From positions 186,001 through 250,000 of the forward strand of contig JAKQIY010000030.1 of assembly GCA_029561455.1 (NCBI GenBank): a stretch of 64,000 nt of DNA, given 5' to 3'. The DNA comes from a bacterium (lineage in GTDB: Bacteria; Zhuqueibacterota; Zhuqueibacteria; Residuimicrobiales; Krinioviventaceae). Below the pieces are notes generated by a model. The model saw nothing but the letters and a program-made list of their open reading frames with translations. It did not search any database and was not told where the DNA came from. Numbering within the stretch: position 1 is the stretch's first letter; the number at the start of each line of letters is the position of its first letter. This document shows positions 5,924 to 12,616 of this stretch, one piece after another. The position numbers and the translations under genes were made by a program.

Positions 5924-6712
5924 TTATACCAGAGTCAGCGCTTCTTTGAGTGTTATGCAAAATCCTGCGGCCGCCAGCTTTTTGTCCTGGGCTTGTTCCA
6001 GTTCGCTGATTAACCAACTACCGATTATCACCCCGTCGGCTGATCGGGCCGCCTGTTGCGCTTGTTCCACCGATGATATGCCAAAACCGACCGCAATCGG
6101 CAGTGTGGTCATGCTTTTTAGTGAACGAACAATATTATCGAGTTGATTATTATCGGTATGTTGCCCGGTTATGCCATAATGCGATACGCAATAGACAAAA
6201 CCGCCGGTGGCGGCAAGAATGTTACGGGTACGCTCCGTACCAGGTTCCGGAGAAACCAGGTAGATAAGATTAATGGAATGTTCGCGGCACAGGCTTTCAA
6301 AGTGCTCGCCTTCTTCAAAAGGCAGGTCGGCAATGATCAGGCCGTCGCCGCCGGCCGCCCGGTATTCGTGGAGGAACGCCTCGGGGCCAAAATGAAGAAT
6401 GGTATTGAAATAACCCATCAACACCACCGGCGTTTGGTGAGTTTGCCGGAATGTTTTAACCAGCGACAGAATATCCCGCAGATTGATATTATTAAGCAAT
6501 GCCCGCGCCGATGCCCGTTGAATGACCGGTCCATCAGCCATGGGATCAGAAAACGGAATGCCCAGTTCTATGCAATCCACGCCGTTTTCCGCCAGGGCTT
6601 GCATAATGTTGAGGGTAGCAGCCATATCCGGGTCGCCCGCTGTTATATATAGGATTAATGCCTTTTCATGTCTTTTTTGCAGTTCGGTAAAATGTTTTTC
6701 CAGTCGGTTCAT
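5924..6712 (-). CDS. trpA: Tryptophan synthase alpha chain
   Basis: A 262-residue TIM-barrel subunit that cleaves indole-3-glycerol phosphate to indole and glyceraldehyde-3-phosphate, passing indole to TrpB. The active-site Glu and Asp are in CIELGIPFSDPMADGP (about residues 43-58), and GFGISS in the C-terminal half binds phosphate. I place the start at the ATG 6712, which has GAGGA six bases upstream and lies one base after the trpB stop; the longer frame would start inside trpB. It is the last gene of the trp operon. Confidence 0.95.
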   Translation of the reverse strand: MNRLEKHFTELQKRHEKALILYITAGDPDMAATLNIMQALAENGVDCIELGIPFSDPMADGPVIQRASARALLNNINLRDILSLVKTFRQTHQTPVVLMGYFNTILHFGPEAFLHEYRAAGGDGLIIADLPFEEGEHFESLCREHSINLIYLVSPEPGTERTRNILAATGGFVYCVSHYGITGQHTDNNQLDNIVRSLKSMTTLPIAVGFGISSVEQAQQAARSADGVIIGSWLISELEQAQDKKLAAAGFCITLKEALTLV

Positions 6713-6713
6713 A

Positions 6714-7889
6714 TTATTCCTCATTCCTGATAATATTCGAACTAATTATATCTTTATCGCCGCGCCCGGAGAGGCAGACGAGAATATTTTGTTTTTTATC
6801 CAGGTGCGGAGCCAGTTTCAAAGTATAAGCCAGCGCATGTGAGCTTTCCAGCGCCGGGATGATGCCTTCCAGGTGCGCCAGGGTTTTATATGCCTGCACG
6901 GCTTCATCATCCGTGATCGTTACGTATTCAGCGCGGCCGGTTTCCTTGTACCAGGCATGTTCCGGCCCAACTCCGGGATAATCGAGCCCTGCCGCCACGG
7001 AATGGGTGGGCGCTATTTGTCCGTACTCGTCCTGTAAAAAGTAACTTTTTTTACCATGAAAAACGCCCACCTGTCCCTTCCCCAGGGAACAGGAATTATC
7101 ACCAATGGCCGGGCCGCACCCGCCGGCTTCCACGCCGACCAGTTTCGCTGTTGTCGAGTAAAAAGGATGGAAAATACCCATCGAGTTGCTGCCGCCGCCG
7201 ACGCAGGCGATTATATAATCGGGAACCGACAAGCCGAATTCCGGCAATTGCTGCAGCGCTTCCCGGCCGATAATGGACTGAAAATTGCGAACCATCGTCG
7301 GGTAGGGGTGTGGTCCGACCACCGAGCCGAAAATGTAAAATGTATTTTTGACAGAAGCCACCCATTCGCGGATTGCTTCATTAATAGCGTCTTTCAGGGT
7401 TTGTGAACCGCTGTAAACCGGGATGACCTCTGCGCCCAGCAGTTTCATGCGAAATACATTCAGTTCCTGGCGGATGGTATCTTCATTGCCCATAAAGATA
7501 TGACATTCGAGACCCAACAGGGCGCAAACGGTTGCCGTCGCAACGCCATGCTGCCCGGCGCCGGTTTCGGCAATGACTCTTTTTTTGCCCATTTTTTTGG
7601 CAATCAGCGCCTGGCCAAGACAATTATTGAGTTTGTGCGAACCGGTATGGTTCAGGTCTTCTCTTTTTAAATAGATACCGGCGCCTCCGGCATGACGGGT
7701 CAGGTTTTCCGCATAATACAGCGGTGTAGGCCGGCCAGCATAGTGTTTGAATAAATGATCCAGTTCCTGTTTAAATGTTATATCATTGCTCAACTCATTA
7801 TACACCTGTTCCAGTTCCTTCAGCGCCGGCATGAGCAGTTCCGGCACATATTGTCCGCCATAATTTCCAAAATATCCGCGTTGTCGCAT
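6714..7889 (-). CDS. trpB: Tryptophan synthase beta chain
   Basis: A 391-residue PLP enzyme joining indole and serine to make tryptophan. The PLP-binding Lys is in [16 protein letters not shown] (about residue 80). The phosphate site [12 protein letters not shown], the catalytic Glu region [13 protein letters not shown] and the C-terminal CLSGRGDKD are all intact. This is the TrpB1 type, which normally works with TrpA. The start ATG 7889 is preceded by AGAGGTG and lies two bases after the trpF stop; a GTG two codons upstream overlaps that ribosome site and is less likely. Confidence 0.96.
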
Positions 7890-7891
7890 GT

Positions 7892-8488
7892 TCACCTCTT
7901 GATCGTTCTTATCAGGTTTGTCATTAAAGTTTTATTTTTAAATCCCGGTGCATCTTCAACTCCGGAACTGACATCCAGTCCGAAAGGTTTATACCGGGTC
8001 ATATAATCCGCAGCATTTCCAGGGGTTATGCCGCCGGCCAGAATAATGTTGGACAGATCGGCATTTTGCAGTATGGCGGCATCGATCTGCCGCCCGGTGC
8101 CGCCCGCCACACCGGGCACAAATGCGTCCACCAGGATTTTCCATACAGTGGTATATCCTAAAGTTTTTTGCCAATCAGCCGCGTTTTGCATTCGAAAGGC
8201 TTTGATGATTGCGCCGCCCAGTTCCCGACAATAGTCCGGCGATTCATTGCCATGCAGTTGTACAATATCCAGGCCGCATTGCCGGCGGATGGTTTGCACT
8301 GTTGCAAGCCCGGCGTCAACAAACACGCCAATTTTAGGAATGTGGATTTGTTTACCGATCTCCGCTACCGCAGTCGGTGTCATTTGCCGGGGACTGGCAG
8401 CGAAGACAAAACCGATGGCATCCGCTCCCAGCGCCTCGGCAAACAGGGCGTCTTCAAGACGGGTTATTCCGCAAATCTTTACCCACAT
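7892..8488 (-). CDS. trpF: Phosphoribosylanthranilate isomerase
   Basis: A 198-residue TIM barrel that isomerises N-(5-phosphoribosyl)anthranilate to CdRP. The catalytic Cys lies in the N-terminal VKICGIT and the catalytic Asp in the VDAF strand. [23 protein letters not shown] and GLDVSSGVE are the classic barrel-strand motifs. It is a separate gene rather than a TrpCF fusion. It begins three bases after trpC and ends just before trpB. Confidence 0.95.
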
Positions 8489-8491
8489 GGG

Positions 8492-9277
8492 TTATACCCC
8501 CCGCAATGCCCGCAGACCGGCGGTACGATCCGCCTGCTGCATAAGAAGTTCGCCAACCAGAACGGCATTGTAGCCTGCTTTTGTCAGGGTAAGCACATCG
8601 GCGCGGCTATGAATACCGCTTTCGCTGACCTTGATTTTATCCGCCGGAATGAGTTTAGCCAATTCCAGGCTGGTATTCAAACTGGTGTGAAATGTTGCCA
8701 GGTTGCGGTTGTTTACTCCAATAATAGCCGCATTTGCATTTAACGCTTTTTCCAGTTCTGCGGCATTGTGGACTTCAACCATGGCGTCGAGTTTTAAGGT
8801 ATATGCCAGGTCGAGAAATTCTTTGATCTGGATGGTGTCGAGCGCTGCGGCTATCAGCAGAATGGCGCTGGCCGAACAGGCCGCGGCCTCGTATACCTGG
8901 TAACTGTCGATAATGAAATCCTTACGCAGCAATGGCGGGGACGCAGTTTTTGCAATATCTGCCAGGTAAGATAATTTTCCGTCAAAGTATTTTTCTTCGG
9001 TGAGCACCGATATTGCCGCTGCCCCGCCGCGGGTATAATCGTAGGCAATTTGCAGGTGGTCAAAGTTCGGACAAATAACACCTTTGCTTGGCGAGGCTTT
9101 TTTAACCTCGGCGATTATGGCGATATGATCCGATTGCAATGCCCGGTTAAAACGCTGCGGCTGTTTGTTTTTACTCACGGTTTCCGCTTTTTCCCGGACT
9201 GCCGCCGGCGACAAACCGGCTTTTCGCTGCGCCAGGGTTTCCCTGGTATCAGCAATAATTTTATGTAAAATGTCCAT
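8492..9277 (-). CDS. trpC: Indole-3-glycerol-phosphate synthase
   Basis: A 261-residue TIM barrel catalysing ring closure and decarboxylation of CdRP. IIAEVKKASPSKG carries the catalytic Lys and phosphate-binding residues (about 52-64). LTEEKYFDG, LLRKDFIID with the second essential Lys, GVNNRNL and VSESGI follow in the expected order. An AGAGGA site lies eight bases before the ATG. The gap to trpD is 16 bases. Confidence 0.95.
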   Translation of the reverse strand: MDILHKIIADTRETLAQRKAGLSPAAVREKAETVSKNKQPQRFNRALQSDHIAIIAEVKKASPSKGVICPNFDHLQIAYDYTRGGAAAISVLTEEKYFDGKLSYLADIAKTASPPLLRKDFIIDSYQVYEAAACSASAILLIAAALDTIQIKEFLDLAYTLKLDAMVEVHNAAELEKALNANAAIIGVNNRNLATFHTSLNTSLELAKLIPADKIKVSESGIHSRADVLTLTKAGYNAVLVGELLMQQADRTAGLRALRGV

Positions 9278-9293
9278 TATCTTTATCCTCTGT

Positions 9294-10310
9294 TCAGTTT
9301 GCCGGCACGGATGAACTAAAATTGATCAAATCGGCAAGTTTACGTTTGGCTCTTCCTGAGAGTATGGTATCATAGGCGATTCTAACGCCTTCATGGATGG
9401 AAGCGGCATTACCGGAGGTATAAATAGCTGCCCCGGCGTTGAATGCTGTTATATCCATTTGCGGGCCTTTAACGCCGTTAAGCATATTCCTGATAATACC
9501 GGCATTGGTCTCCGCATCGCCGCCATTAATGGAGGACAGAACTTGTCTTTGTATACCCATATCTTCGGGGCGGAGTTTTTGCTGCCGTATTTCACCGTTT
9601 GCCAGTTCAAATACCTGCGTATCTGCGCTGATGGAAATTTCGTCCAGGCCGTCGTCGCTGTGAATGACCAGCACATGGTCGCTGCCGGTATTTTTCAGTA
9701 CCTGGATCATTTTTTCCGCAGTCGGCATGTTAAATACCCCCACGACCTGTTTTTTTACCCCCGCAGGATTCGACATGGGGCCAAGGATATTGAATACCGT
9801 ACGAATGCCCATCTCCCGGCGGGGAACCACCGCATGTTTCATTGATGGGTGGTATACCGGTGCAAATAAAAAAGCCAGACCTACTTCGTGCAGACAGCTT
9901 TGCGCATGTTCCGGCTGCATATCGATTTTAACGCCCAGTTGCTGAAACACATCGGCGCTGCCGCATTTACTGGAAACGGACTTGTTGCCGTGCTTGGCCA
10001 CCGGCACACCTGCTGCTGCCGTTACTATGGCCGCGGCTGTGGAGACATTGAATGTTGAAGCGCCATCGCCGCCGGTGCCGCAGGTATCCAGCATTCCGGC
10101 CGGGCCGTCGACTTTGCAGGCTTTATCGCGCATGGCGCGGACGAACCCGGATATTTCCGGAACCGTTTCGCCTTTCATGCGCAAACCCATTAAAAATCCT
10201 GCTATTTGTGCGGGTGTGTATTCACCGTTCATGATCGACATCATAGCGCTGTAGGCCTCCTGTTCGTCAAGGTTGACTTTTGAACTTAATTTTTCCAAAA
10301 TTTCTTTCAT
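9294..10310 (-). CDS. trpD: Anthranilate phosphoribosyltransferase
   Basis: A 338-residue enzyme transferring the phosphoribosyl group of PRPP to anthranilate. The PRPP-binding loop GTGGDGASTFNVST is at about residues 80-93, followed by KHGNKSVSSKCGSADV, both hallmarks of TrpD. The N-terminal helical domain (EQEAYSAMMSIMNGEYTPAQIAGFLMG) is complete. It is not fused to TrpG. It starts nine bases after trpG. Confidence 0.95.
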   Translation of the reverse strand: MKEILEKLSSKVNLDEQEAYSAMMSIMNGEYTPAQIAGFLMGLRMKGETVPEISGFVRAMRDKACKVDGPAGMLDTCGTGGDGASTFNVSTAAAIVTAAAGVPVAKHGNKSVSSKCGSADVFQQLGVKIDMQPEHAQSCLHEVGLAFLFAPVYHPSMKHAVVPRREMGIRTVFNILGPMSNPAGVKKQVVGVFNMPTAEKMIQVLKNTGSDHVLVIHSDDGLDEISISADTQVFELANGEIRQQKLRPEDMGIQRQVLSSINGGDAETNAGIIRNMLNGVKGPQMDITAFNAGAAIYTSGNAASIHEGVRIAYDTILSGRAKRKLADLINFSSSVPAN

Positions 10311-10319
10311 GGTTTGCCT

Positions 10320-10883
10320 CTACATGTTTATAAAGTTTGTTATTATTTTCATTCCTGCGCGGGTCAAAATTGACTCGGGGTGAAACTGCACGCCTTCGAC
10401 CGGGTATTCTTTGTGACGGATTCCCATGATCTGTTCATCGCCGGTTTGCGCAGTTATTTCCAGGCAATTGGGCAGAGATTCTTTTTCCACTACCAGCGAA
10501 TGGTAGCGACCGGCATCGAGCGGGTTTTCAACATCCGCAAACAGGTTTTTGTTATCGTGGTGGATCAGGCTGTTTTTGCCATGCACAAGCTCACGGGCAG
10601 AGACGATTTTTCCGTTAAAAGCATGGGCAATTGCCTGGTGCCCCAGGCAAACTCCGAGTATCGGGTACTGTGTATAAAAATGCCTGATAACATCCAGGGT
10701 AATTCCGGCTTCACGGGGATGACCGGGGCCGGGAGATATAACAATCCATTCCGGCTGCATCTGCTTGATCTCCTCAAGCGTGATTTTATCGTTTCGTTTT
10801 ACAACCAGGTCTTTACCCAGCATACCAAAGTATTGCACCAGGTTATAGGTAAACGAATCGTAATTATCAATGACCAGTATCAT
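10320..10883 (-). CDS. trpG: Anthranilate synthase component II (glutamine amidotransferase)
   Basis: A 187-residue class I glutaminase supplying ammonia to TrpE. The nucleophile Cys is in GVCLGHQAIAHAF (about residues 77-89), and the His/Glu pair in VQFHPESIL. I start it at the ATG giving MILVIDNYDSFTYNL, the usual N-terminus, with GGGAGG six bases upstream. This overlaps the end of trpE by 17 bases, implying coupling. The same protein can also serve as PabA in folate synthesis. Confidence 0.94.
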   Translation of the reverse strand: MILVIDNYDSFTYNLVQYFGMLGKDLVVKRNDKITLEEIKQMQPEWIVISPGPGHPREAGITLDVIRHFYTQYPILGVCLGHQAIAHAFNGKIVSARELVHGKNSLIHHDNKNLFADVENPLDAGRYHSLVVEKESLPNCLEITAQTGDEQIMGIRHKEYPVEGVQFHPESILTRAGMKIITNFINM

Positions 10884-12354
10884 ACAAACCTCCCTCGGCA
10901 AATTTTATAGCCTGTTCCAGGCCTTTGGCTTTATTACATGTTTCTTCATATTCTTTTTCGGGCACGGAATCGGCGACAATACCGGCGCCGGCCTGAAACC
11001 AGGCTTGATTATTCTTTACATAGATCGTTCTAATGGCGATGCACACATCCATATTGCCGTCAAAACTGAAATAACCGGCAGCGCCGGCATAGATACCGCG
11101 GCGGGTGGGTTCCAGTTCTTCGATTATTTCCATAGCGCGGACTTTGGGCGCACCCGAAACCGTACCGGCGGGAAAACAGGCCTTGTAAACATCAATCGCA
11201 TTCAGACCTTTTTTCAGAATGCCGCTGACCGTTGAAACAATGTGAATGACATGCGAGTATTTTTCAATCGTCATCAGTTCCTCAACCTTTACGCTGCCAT
11301 ATTCAGCAATTTTGCCAATATCGTTGCGGCCCAGGTCGACCAGCATGGTATGTTCGGCGCGTTCTTTGGGATCGGCCAGTAATTCGTTAACCAGTGCTTC
11401 ATCTTCTTTATCATTTGCCCCTCTTTTGCGGGTCCCGGCAATAGGTTTAACGTAAACTTTGTTATTTTCAATTTTTACCAGGGTTTCCGGCGATGAACCA
11501 AGCGCTGTCAGGTCATCCATTTGAAGGAAAAACATGTATGGCGAAGGATTGATGACGCGCAAAGCCCGGTAAATATTGAAAACCGGGGTGTTAATGCTAA
11601 GGCAGAAGCGTTGCGACAAGACTCCCTGAAAGATATCGCCCTTTTTTATATACTCCTGGGTTTTAGTAACGATATCTTTAAAATCGGTTTTATCCATATT
11701 GCTCTGCAAGGCGCCGTTACTTTTTCCGACGTGGTGGCCATTACCGGGTACGTGCGGGTTTTGCAGCAGGGTAATGGTTTGCCGGATTTTTCCCCTGGCG
11801 CTGTGATATTCTTGTTCCATTGCCCCATGCGGGGTAACAAATCGGGTTATGGTGATCTTGTTGAACAAGTTATCGAATACGATAATGTTTTGCGGGATGA
11901 ATAAAATCATGTCCGGTATATTCATATCATCAATTGACAGATCGGGCAGGGTTTCTATATAACGAATCGTATCATAACCCAGGTAACCATACAAACCACC
12001 GCAACTAAAGGGAGAGTCGTTACTGCCGGTCAATGAATAGTGTTGAATCAGGTTTTTGAGAACTGAAAACGGGTTTTCGGTATAATGTGTTATTTCACCG
12101 CTCAGTCTGTTTTCCAGCTTGGATTTACCATTTTTACAGGTGAAAACCGCCAGCGGGTCATCGCCGATAATTGAAAACCGACCGCGCTGTGCGCCGCCCT
12201 CGGCGCTTTCCAGTAAAAAGCGATAGGGGGGATGCGTGGCTTTTAAAAAGGTGGTAACCGGCGTATCCAGGTCACCCAGGATTTGGACGCTGACCGGCTG
12301 TAACCGGGCGGTGTTGTAGCTGTTTTTAAATTGATCCAGCGATGTAAATTTCAT
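10867..12354 (-). CDS. trpE: Anthranilate synthase component I
   Basis: A 495-residue chorismate-binding enzyme making anthranilate with ammonia from TrpG. The N-terminal FLLESAEGG (about 47) contains the LLES motif that binds feedback-inhibiting tryptophan. The catalytic half shows ALGSSPETLVKI, KPIAGTRKRG, LVDLGRNDIGKI and AGTVSGAPKVRAMEII in the normal order, so it is full length. AGGAG precedes the ATG. It is the first enzyme gene of trpEGDCFBA and lies just downstream of the attenuator terminator, so its transcription is set by tryptophan supply. Confidence 0.96.
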   Translation of the reverse strand: MKFTSLDQFKNSYNTARLQPVSVQILGDLDTPVTTFLKATHPPYRFLLESAEGGAQRGRFSIIGDDPLAVFTCKNGKSKLENRLSGEITHYTENPFSVLKNLIQHYSLTGSNDSPFSCGGLYGYLGYDTIRYIETLPDLSIDDMNIPDMILFIPQNIIVFDNLFNKITITRFVTPHGAMEQEYHSARGKIRQTITLLQNPHVPGNGHHVGKSNGALQSNMDKTDFKDIVTKTQEYIKKGDIFQGVLSQRFCLSINTPVFNIYRALRVINPSPYMFFLQMDDLTALGSSPETLVKIENNKVYVKPIAGTRKRGANDKEDEALVNELLADPKERAEHTMLVDLGRNDIGKIAEYGSVKVEELMTIEKYSHVIHIVSTVSGILKKGLNAIDVYKACFPAGTVSGAPKVRAMEIIEELEPTRRGIYAGAAGYFSFDGNMDVCIAIRTIYVKNNQAWFQAGAGIVADSVPEKEYEETCNKAKGLEQAIKFAEGGLYDTGH

Positions 12355-12373: not shown

Positions 12374-12411
12374 AAAAAAGGCGCTGTGTCTTTTCAGGGT
12401 TTCACAGCGCC
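12374..12411 (-). terminator. trp attenuator terminator hairpin
   Basis: On the minus strand GGCGCTGTG pairs perfectly with CACAGCGCC over a 14-base loop, followed by six T. It lies 20 bases before trpE and behind the Trp-rich leader peptide. Part of its left arm (CGCTGTGA) can instead pair with TCACGGCG of the preceding hairpin, giving the antiterminated state. Confidence 0.9.
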
Positions 12412-12422
12412 TTAAATGAAAA

Positions 12423-12452
12423 CGCCGTGAGTGCTTGGGTGCACTCACGGCG
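12423..12452 (-). promoter_or_regulatory. trp leader anti-antiterminator hairpin
   Basis: CGCCGTGAGTGC and GCACTCACGGCG form a perfect 12-bp stem with loop ACCCAA on the minus strand. Its left arm and loop (GTGCACC) can pair with GGTGTAC near the end of the leader peptide. Its right arm (TCACGGCG) can pair with the terminator's left arm. These competing pairings allow a ribosome stalled at Trp codons to prevent termination. Confidence 0.82.
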
Positions 12453-12482
12453 ATAATATTTGTTTATTTTATTATAATAATT

Positions 12483-12557
12483 TTATCGGTGGTACACCTC
12501 TGTTCGCCAGAGCCACCACCAAAATAAAAAGCAGGATTGTTTTTGTGTTAAAGACAT
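12483..12557 (-). CDS. trpL: trp operon leader peptide
   Basis: A 24-codon ORF on the minus strand between the promoter and the attenuator of the trp operon. It contains FLFWWWLWRTEV, that is, Trp codons at positions 13, 14, 15 and 17 (bases 12507-12521), far above chance for such a short peptide. The Trp codons lie in the left arm of a pause hairpin (GGTGGT with ACCACC, 12488-12520, and CTCTG with CAGAG inside). Translation of this peptide senses charged tRNA-Trp: stalling frees GGTGTAC to pair downstream and blocks the terminator. It is too short for usual gene calling. The ribosome-binding site is weak (GGA about ten bases upstream). Confidence 0.9.
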   Translation of the reverse strand: MSLTQKQSCFLFWWWLWRTEVYHR

Positions 12558-12587
12558 TTTGAATTCCATTCAATTTTTAATTTTAAA

Positions 12588-12616
12588 AAGATACAATTTT
12601 TTTTAATTATTGTCAA
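12588..12616 (-). promoter_or_regulatory. Promoter of the trp operon
   Basis: On the minus strand TTGACA (12616-12611) is separated by 17 bases from TATCTT (12593-12588). This would start transcription near 12580, about 23 bases before the leader-peptide ATG. The -35 element overlaps the stop codon of the upstream SDR gene. No operator-like palindrome is obvious, consistent with attenuation being the main control. Confidence 0.65.

Follow-up and report, generated by a model that had tools for sequence, protein, structure and literature searches.

In the model of the enterobacterial his attenuator, the hairpins AB, CD and EF of the leader RNA stand against the alternative pairings BC and DE (PMC10989985). 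Outside the Proteobacteria, attenuation through a leader peptide is known for trp in Actinobacteria (Corynebacterium, Streptomyces; PMC1262725), His leaders are found at hisS/hisZ in Firmicutes (PMC2965389), and ilvBNC of C. glutamicum has an anti-antiterminator, an antiterminator and a terminator together with a leader peptide (PMC11857589). Transcriptome data of Flavobacterium psychrophilum, an FCB organism, have also been interpreted as leader-peptide attenuation of amino-acid operons in an account whose main text, unlike the case described here, names no trp leader (PMC9723704).

We have analyzed a window of 64,000 nucleotides (all positions below refer to this whole stretch) from a genome of 5.85 Mb in 85 contigs that belongs to a phylum of uncultured bacteria. 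Before trpE we have found a leader that we read, with a probability of about 0.85, as a six-arm transcription attenuator of trpEGDCFBA, mediated by the ribosome and with two consecutive terminators. Since leader-peptide attenuation outside the Proteobacteria had already been reported, the kind of attenuator is a known and ordinary one; the novelty is in the architecture for trp and in the lineage. An earlier interpretation, made from the letters of this DNA only (the sequence-only reading), had suggested that such a leader would widen the range of the mechanism. It does so for this phylum, but the kind as such was already known in Actinobacteria, Firmicutes and Flavobacterium.

Organization of the trp leader and operon

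The leader is located on the minus strand, like all the features described in this section, between an SDR oxidoreductase gene and trpE. The SDR gene runs in the same direction, and its end at 12613 falls at the promoter. This promoter, TTGACA-17-TATCTT (12588..12616, with TTGACA at 12616-12611 and TATCTT at 12593-12588), is of sigma-70 type and was the top promoter-like site within 8.5 kb. The same TTGACA/TATAAT sigma-70 type applies to the leaders of L002-L036, and we take it to differ from the Bacteroidota promoter type. The leader peptide trpL (MSLTQKQSCFLFWWWLWRTEVYHR*, 24 codons, 12483..12557) has Trp at codons 13, 14, 15 and 17 (12521-12507); an in-frame ATG at 12569 is a possible start of a longer version of 28 codons, and the ribosome-binding site of the leader in this window is a weak one. 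In the complete 64-kb window trpL was the sole short ORF with at least four Trp within five codons, and none appeared in 40 shuffled windows. A His-rich ORF at +49398 turned out to be a CA repeat and not a leader.

The leader RNA folds 6.6 s.d. below its dinucleotide shuffles (z = -6.6) and can be described by six arms, with 1:2, 3:4 and 5:6 as the pairs of the terminated, stable state and 2:3 and 4:5 as the alternatives. Hairpin 1:2 (12488..12520, -16.6 kcal/mol), the putative pause or anti-antiterminator hairpin, holds the Trp codons in arm 1, and the trpL stop codon comes just past arm 2 (approximately 12502-12488). The next hairpin, Q (arms 3:4, 12423..12452, -24.1 kcal/mol), has a perfect stem of 12 bp and is followed in the window by TTTTCATTT, which makes it a candidate first terminator with a weak T-run; most relatives have 5–9 T at this point. 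The last hairpin, T (arms 5:6, 12374..12411), is the candidate second terminator, with the stem at 12411-12380 and TTTTTT at 12379-12374. The alternative pairings are the antiterminator 2:3 (12438..12502), formed by arm 2 (12502-12485) and arm 3 (12452-12438) with a GATAA/TTATC extension, and the relay pairing 4:5 (12401..12434), in which the 3' strand of Q (12434-12423) pairs with the 5' strand of T (12411-12401).

Promoter, leader ORF, the four Trp codons, the hairpin over them, the perfect hairpin and the terminator with six T were all where the sequence-only reading had placed them. The two competing complementarities that it had proposed, GGTGTAC (12498-12492) with GTGCACC (12444-12438) and TCACGGCG with CGCTGTGA of the terminator, were also right. 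The description as a four-arm switch had to be revised, since there are six arms and the pause hairpin is followed by another two. By the same token the 12-bp hairpin is more than a middle stem. Ten of the 13 leaders that we compared (see below) have five or more T after Q, which makes it a terminator in tandem with T; the window, L006 and L008 have TTTTC there. Hairpin T has its T-run in every one of the 13, and in the window it is the better terminator of the two because Q has there TTTTC only.

Downstream of the switch, NCBIfam assignments give the operon trpEGDCFBA. The gene trpE (anthranilate synthase component I, 10867..12354, TIGR00564, 564.9 bits), with its ribosome site AGGAG at 12367-12363, is followed by trpG (10320..10883, TIGR00566, 252 bits; the start was set at the homologous ATG, the ORF list having 10901), trpD (9294..10310, TIGR01245, 418 bits), trpC (8492..9277, NF001377, 316 bits), trpF (7892..8488, NF002298, 197 bits, which is below the cut-off of 215, with top matches that are all to this enzyme), trpB (6714..7895, TIGR00263, 604 bits) and, as the last gene, trpA (5924..6724, TIGR00262, 251 bits). 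No aro or other aromatic genes were found after trpA in the window.

Conservation in related genomes

A search for TrpE (E <= 1e-85) gave matches in 47 of the 82 genomes of the phylum. Leaders with WWW or WWWW directly before trpE were found in 13 genomes of seven families (f1, f3, f5, f8, f12, f13 and, from another class, f15), always with the same order of hairpins, i.e., one over the Trp codons, then Q, then T. The Trp-run leader and the three hairpins were present in 13 out of 13 genomes with this TrpE type and upstream sequence. Besides, a covariance model of Q and T searched over the 82 genomes found these 13 at 59–91 bits, with one match each, beside trpE, and no further matches above ~40 bits. 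Two matches of ~40 bits were inspected; both are found after groEL and resemble ordinary terminators. The genes upstream of the leader vary between genomes in identity, strand and distance, indicating that the element belongs to trpE. Conservation of the Trp codons and of the competing arms in relatives was critical for the sequence-only reading, and both are kept. The promoter is mostly kept as well, with 9 of the 13 leaders preceded by TTGACA or TTGACT, a spacer of 16–17 nt and TATNTT, TATACT or TATTAT.

In the TrpE tree the six-arm leaders fall in one clade (support 95/93), made up of the 13 leader genomes and one row whose contig begins inside trpE. The two f15 genomes (L035 and L036) have TrpE 59–60% identical to that of the window and the same six-arm leader, and they branch within the clade of the window's order. 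This position points to a joint transfer of operon and switch. No match to full-length trpE was found in G012, G014-G018, G020, G021 and others of the same order, several of them more than 90% complete, and the trp operon may be absent from these genomes. The TrpE matches of L009, L021 and L027-L029 contain one in-frame stop each (TGA or TAA) that may be the gene end.

Coevolution of the pairings

Whole-leader MAFFT alignment misaligned arms 1 and 2, and for this reason we exchanged arms between species instead of counting alignment columns. The duplex energy of arms from the same species was compared with that of exchanged arms over 20,000 permutations, a test that takes no account of relatedness among the 13 leaders. 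Own pairs for 2:3 had a mean of -15.8 kcal/mol vs. -12.5 when swapped, with none of the 20,000 permutations as good, and for 4:5 the values were -15.5 and -13.4 kcal/mol, with only one permutation as good. The pairs 1:2, 3:4 and 5:6 gave 0/20,000 each. As for the controls, own pairs of 2:5 were no better than swapped ones (19,469/20,000), and 3:6 was also low (339/20,000). The apical part of arm 3 varies with arm 2, which can be, for example, GCAGTG, GCAATG, GCGATG or GGGTAG, and the stems of Q and T show changes on both sides at 9 of 21 pairs, i.e., compensatory changes. A 4:5 pairing of at least 7 bp is found in 13/13 leaders and survives the change of the stem from CGCCGTG/CGCTGTG to GGCTGTG/GGCTGTG or CGTCGTG.

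When the sequence of the window alone was compared with shuffles, 2:3 was strong (6–9 of 2000 as good) and 4:5 weak (70–321 of 2000), so the case for the predicted 4:5 pairing is a comparative one. Part of the complementarity of 4:5 is built in, because the stems of Q and T are similar. Given this resemblance, and the relatedness that remains in the permutation test, 2:3 is the better supported of the two alternative pairings.

Folding of the nascent RNA

We have folded nascent RNAs with pairing barred between 18 nt upstream and 12 nt downstream of the A-site codon, a ribosome footprint that is an assumption taken from E. coli. In the window, with the ribosome on Trp13, 2:3 forms when arm 3 is out, the minimum is 2:3 plus 4:5 when arm 5 is out, and the terminators appear once arm 6 is out. 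With the first or second Trp codon occupied by the ribosome, 12 of the 13 leaders formed 2:3 once arm 3 had emerged, and in 10 of them the lowest-energy fold at the emergence of arm 5 combined 2:3 with 4:5. Without the ribosome this relay was found in only two. In L003, L006 and L008 the full relay was not seen at any folded stage. A ribosome placed at the stop codon covers arm 2, and the terminators win.

In the full-length RNA the terminated fold is more stable in 12 of the 13 leaders even with a stalled ribosome. The final equilibrium being the terminated fold, relief of termination must be kinetic, i.e., decided during transcription. In E. coli the switches of his and trp are also thought to be decided during transcription.

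Leaders of the his, aro and fused operons

The window's own genome has its his operon behind a leader, MIRYTVHHHHHAHITDNSL, and a terminator (L111, L149). There is also a separate aro operon with the genes of chorismate mutase, DAHP synthase, tyrA, aroA, aroE, aroC, aroK, aroB and aroQ, preceded by the Phe/Tyr leader MKFTYYIFNYFYYFTGRYGKD with a terminator (L138; L146:1059-8955). Leaders with F and Y and without Trp were found in related genomes (MKYNFYNYYYFYFYFGSSGRD, MFYFFYNYYFYFTCSGKG, MFCCYHNFYFYANYNGRS and MHFYSFYNFYFTRVSGMD), and His leaders similar to the one above are present in L108, L109, L112 and L113. At the ilvB and leuA loci a crude scan gave no leader.

A different arrangement is found in the sister families f9, f10 and part of f11, where trpEGDCFBA-chorismate mutase-DAHP synthase(-trpS)-tyrA-aroA-aroE-aroC-aroK-aroQ form one run, shorter where contigs or the fetched stretch end. 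These fused operons have up to ~15 genes (L084, L085, L086, L087, L099, L102 and L103, with upstream regions in L012, L017, L014, L026, L020, L022 and L016), and their leaders mix Phe, Trp and Tyr, as in YWFWYWYYY, FGFWFWYWYYYY and YNFYWSFIWYY. The mixed leaders have a four-arm switch with a single terminator, in which arm 1 (TTCCAC) precedes the aromatic codons, arm 2 (AGTGGGAAG) follows them and arm 3, AACCCACT, is in the terminator. Pairs 1:2 and 2:3 coevolve (0/20,000 each, with 3678 for the control 1:3). The leader core contains three or more Tyr codons in all seven genomes with a readable fused operon, compared with at most one in the six-arm trp leaders. Ahead of trpE, two loci of a further class, L038 and L040, have the leaders WWWYY and WWWY with a single terminator, and L088 (G063) has a trp operon without aro genes.

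We consider it fairly probable that throughout the phylum the codons of the leader follow the fusion and fission of the operons, with trp alone behind Trp-only six-arm leaders with a double terminator, separate aro behind leaders with Phe/Tyr only, and fused operons behind mixed four-arm leaders in which one ribosome would read all three amino acids. The groups are clades and operon content was read in part, so this match of codons to operons is to be taken as a strong pattern, not as a count of independent events. Our literature searches gave no description of mixed Phe/Trp/Tyr leaders. In our opinion this series in related loci is more interesting than the attenuator itself. The leaders W, F+Y, F+W+Y and H match the content of their operons and lead to the question of how the sensed amino acids change when operons split or merge, and the mixed leaders to that of whether there is a separate response to each aromatic amino acid.

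Proposed mechanism and alternative explanations

The locus has the general features of an attenuator: a short ORF that precedes the biosynthetic genes and contains a run of codons for their end product, intrinsic termination before the first structural gene (here two terminator-like hairpins) and a mutually exclusive antiterminator kept by coevolution. Translation of trpL probably decides whether transcription stops. With ample charged tRNA-Trp, the ribosome translating the leader transcript would run past the Trp codons to the stop codon and cover arm 2. Arms 3:4 would then form terminator 1 and arms 5:6 terminator 2, stopping transcription before trpE. With scarce charged tRNA-Trp, and tryptophan in this way as the presumed signal, the ribosome would stall on Trp 13–15 and cover arm 1. 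Arm 2 would be free to pair with arm 3 ahead of the synthesis of arm 4, and arm 4, left single, would pair with arm 5, so that no terminator would form and RNA polymerase would enter trpE.

Another way of explaining the two hairpins after the pause is that the ribosome controls only the choice between 2:3 and 3:4, as in a four-arm switch, with T as an unregulated or partly regulated additional stop and 4:5 as a by-product of T being nearly a copy of Q. The stems of Q and T are indeed alike in every lineage, Q has its own T-run in most relatives, and the weakness of 4:5 against shuffles of the window would fit as well. We find this unlikely, because a second terminator without regulation would keep the operon shut off during starvation too, and the by-product does not account well for a 4:5 pairing that all 13 leaders have, that is better in own than in swapped pairs and that persists through the stem changes. 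The TTTTC of Q in the window, which leaves T as the better terminator there, also argues against T as a simple addition.

The same comparative evidence bears on explanations that dispense with the stalled ribosome. The position of the SDR oxidoreductase gene, on the same strand and ending right at the promoter, would allow the hairpins to be its ordinary terminators and the Trp-rich ORF to be accidental. We give this hardly any credit, since the promoter sits between this gene and the hairpins, the chance of such a Trp run is negligible, and 13 genomes with differing upstream genes share the Trp run, its location in arm 1 and the pair of hairpins; for practical purposes conservation has already refuted it. 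Systems of TRAP-like and T-box-like type control trp in Firmicutes, and a protein or a tRNA could by analogy sense the leader RNA directly. This we regard as very improbable, given that no Rfam family, T-box included, reached its gathering score in the window, no T-box match was obtained over the leader even at E up to 10, and the conserved feature is the in-frame run of Trp codons, with other operons carrying runs of their own cognate codons. All the comparative evidence supports the ribosome-mediated trp attenuator that the sequence-only reading had recognized.

Comparison with known attenuators

Rfam gave only chance-level matches over the window, with no family at its gathering score. The trp leader described here is like trpL of E. 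coli (RF00513) in having a peptide with a Trp run, a pause hairpin and a terminator before trpE, with the same target and, presumably, the same signal. It is not a member of this family (Trp_leader RF00513, 13.4 bits against a gathering score of 41, E = 5.2), and differs by two extra arms and one extra hairpin in all 13 members, by three or four consecutive Trp codons instead of a pair, and also by the order of the operon genes. The trp attenuators of Actinobacteria, with gGCC-rGCy-GGCC triples, have one terminator and one antiterminator and lack the six-arm layout. In C. glutamicum ilvBNC the hairpins are alternative folds with a single terminator, whereas the three hairpins of the trp leader are present together in its terminated state. 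Vitreschak et al. 2004 reportedly list cases from Bacteroidetes/Chlorobi too. We found no description of attenuation in Calditrichota, a phylum of Pseudomonadati at NCBI, in the literature, in which Vitreschak 2004 and Lopatovskaya 2010 may list related cases, and the leader analyzed here documents classical attenuation, with evidence of covariation, in a phylum of uncultured bacteria.

The sequence-only reading had seen in this leader the logic of trp in E. coli, which has to be corrected, since it is the his attenuator of E. coli whose logic the leader follows (PMC10989985). Like hisL of E. coli and Salmonella, the trp leader has six arms and three successive hairpins, with 2:3 and 4:5 as the alternatives. 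As in the hisL model, a ribosome stalled on the cognate codons would cover the first arm (A), so that the equivalents of B:C and D:E pair in place of the terminator E:F. The codons and the target are different, Trp codons and trp genes here, no sequence similarity was found, and His_leader of Rfam gave no match at its gathering score or, within the leader, with E as high as 10, indicating that the likeness is in the way of working only and not by common descent. The six-arm relay would then not be peculiar to his. A further difference with hisL is that the middle hairpin, C:D, has here in most members a T-run of its own, which makes two terminators and suggests that one stalled ribosome can switch two of them in series.
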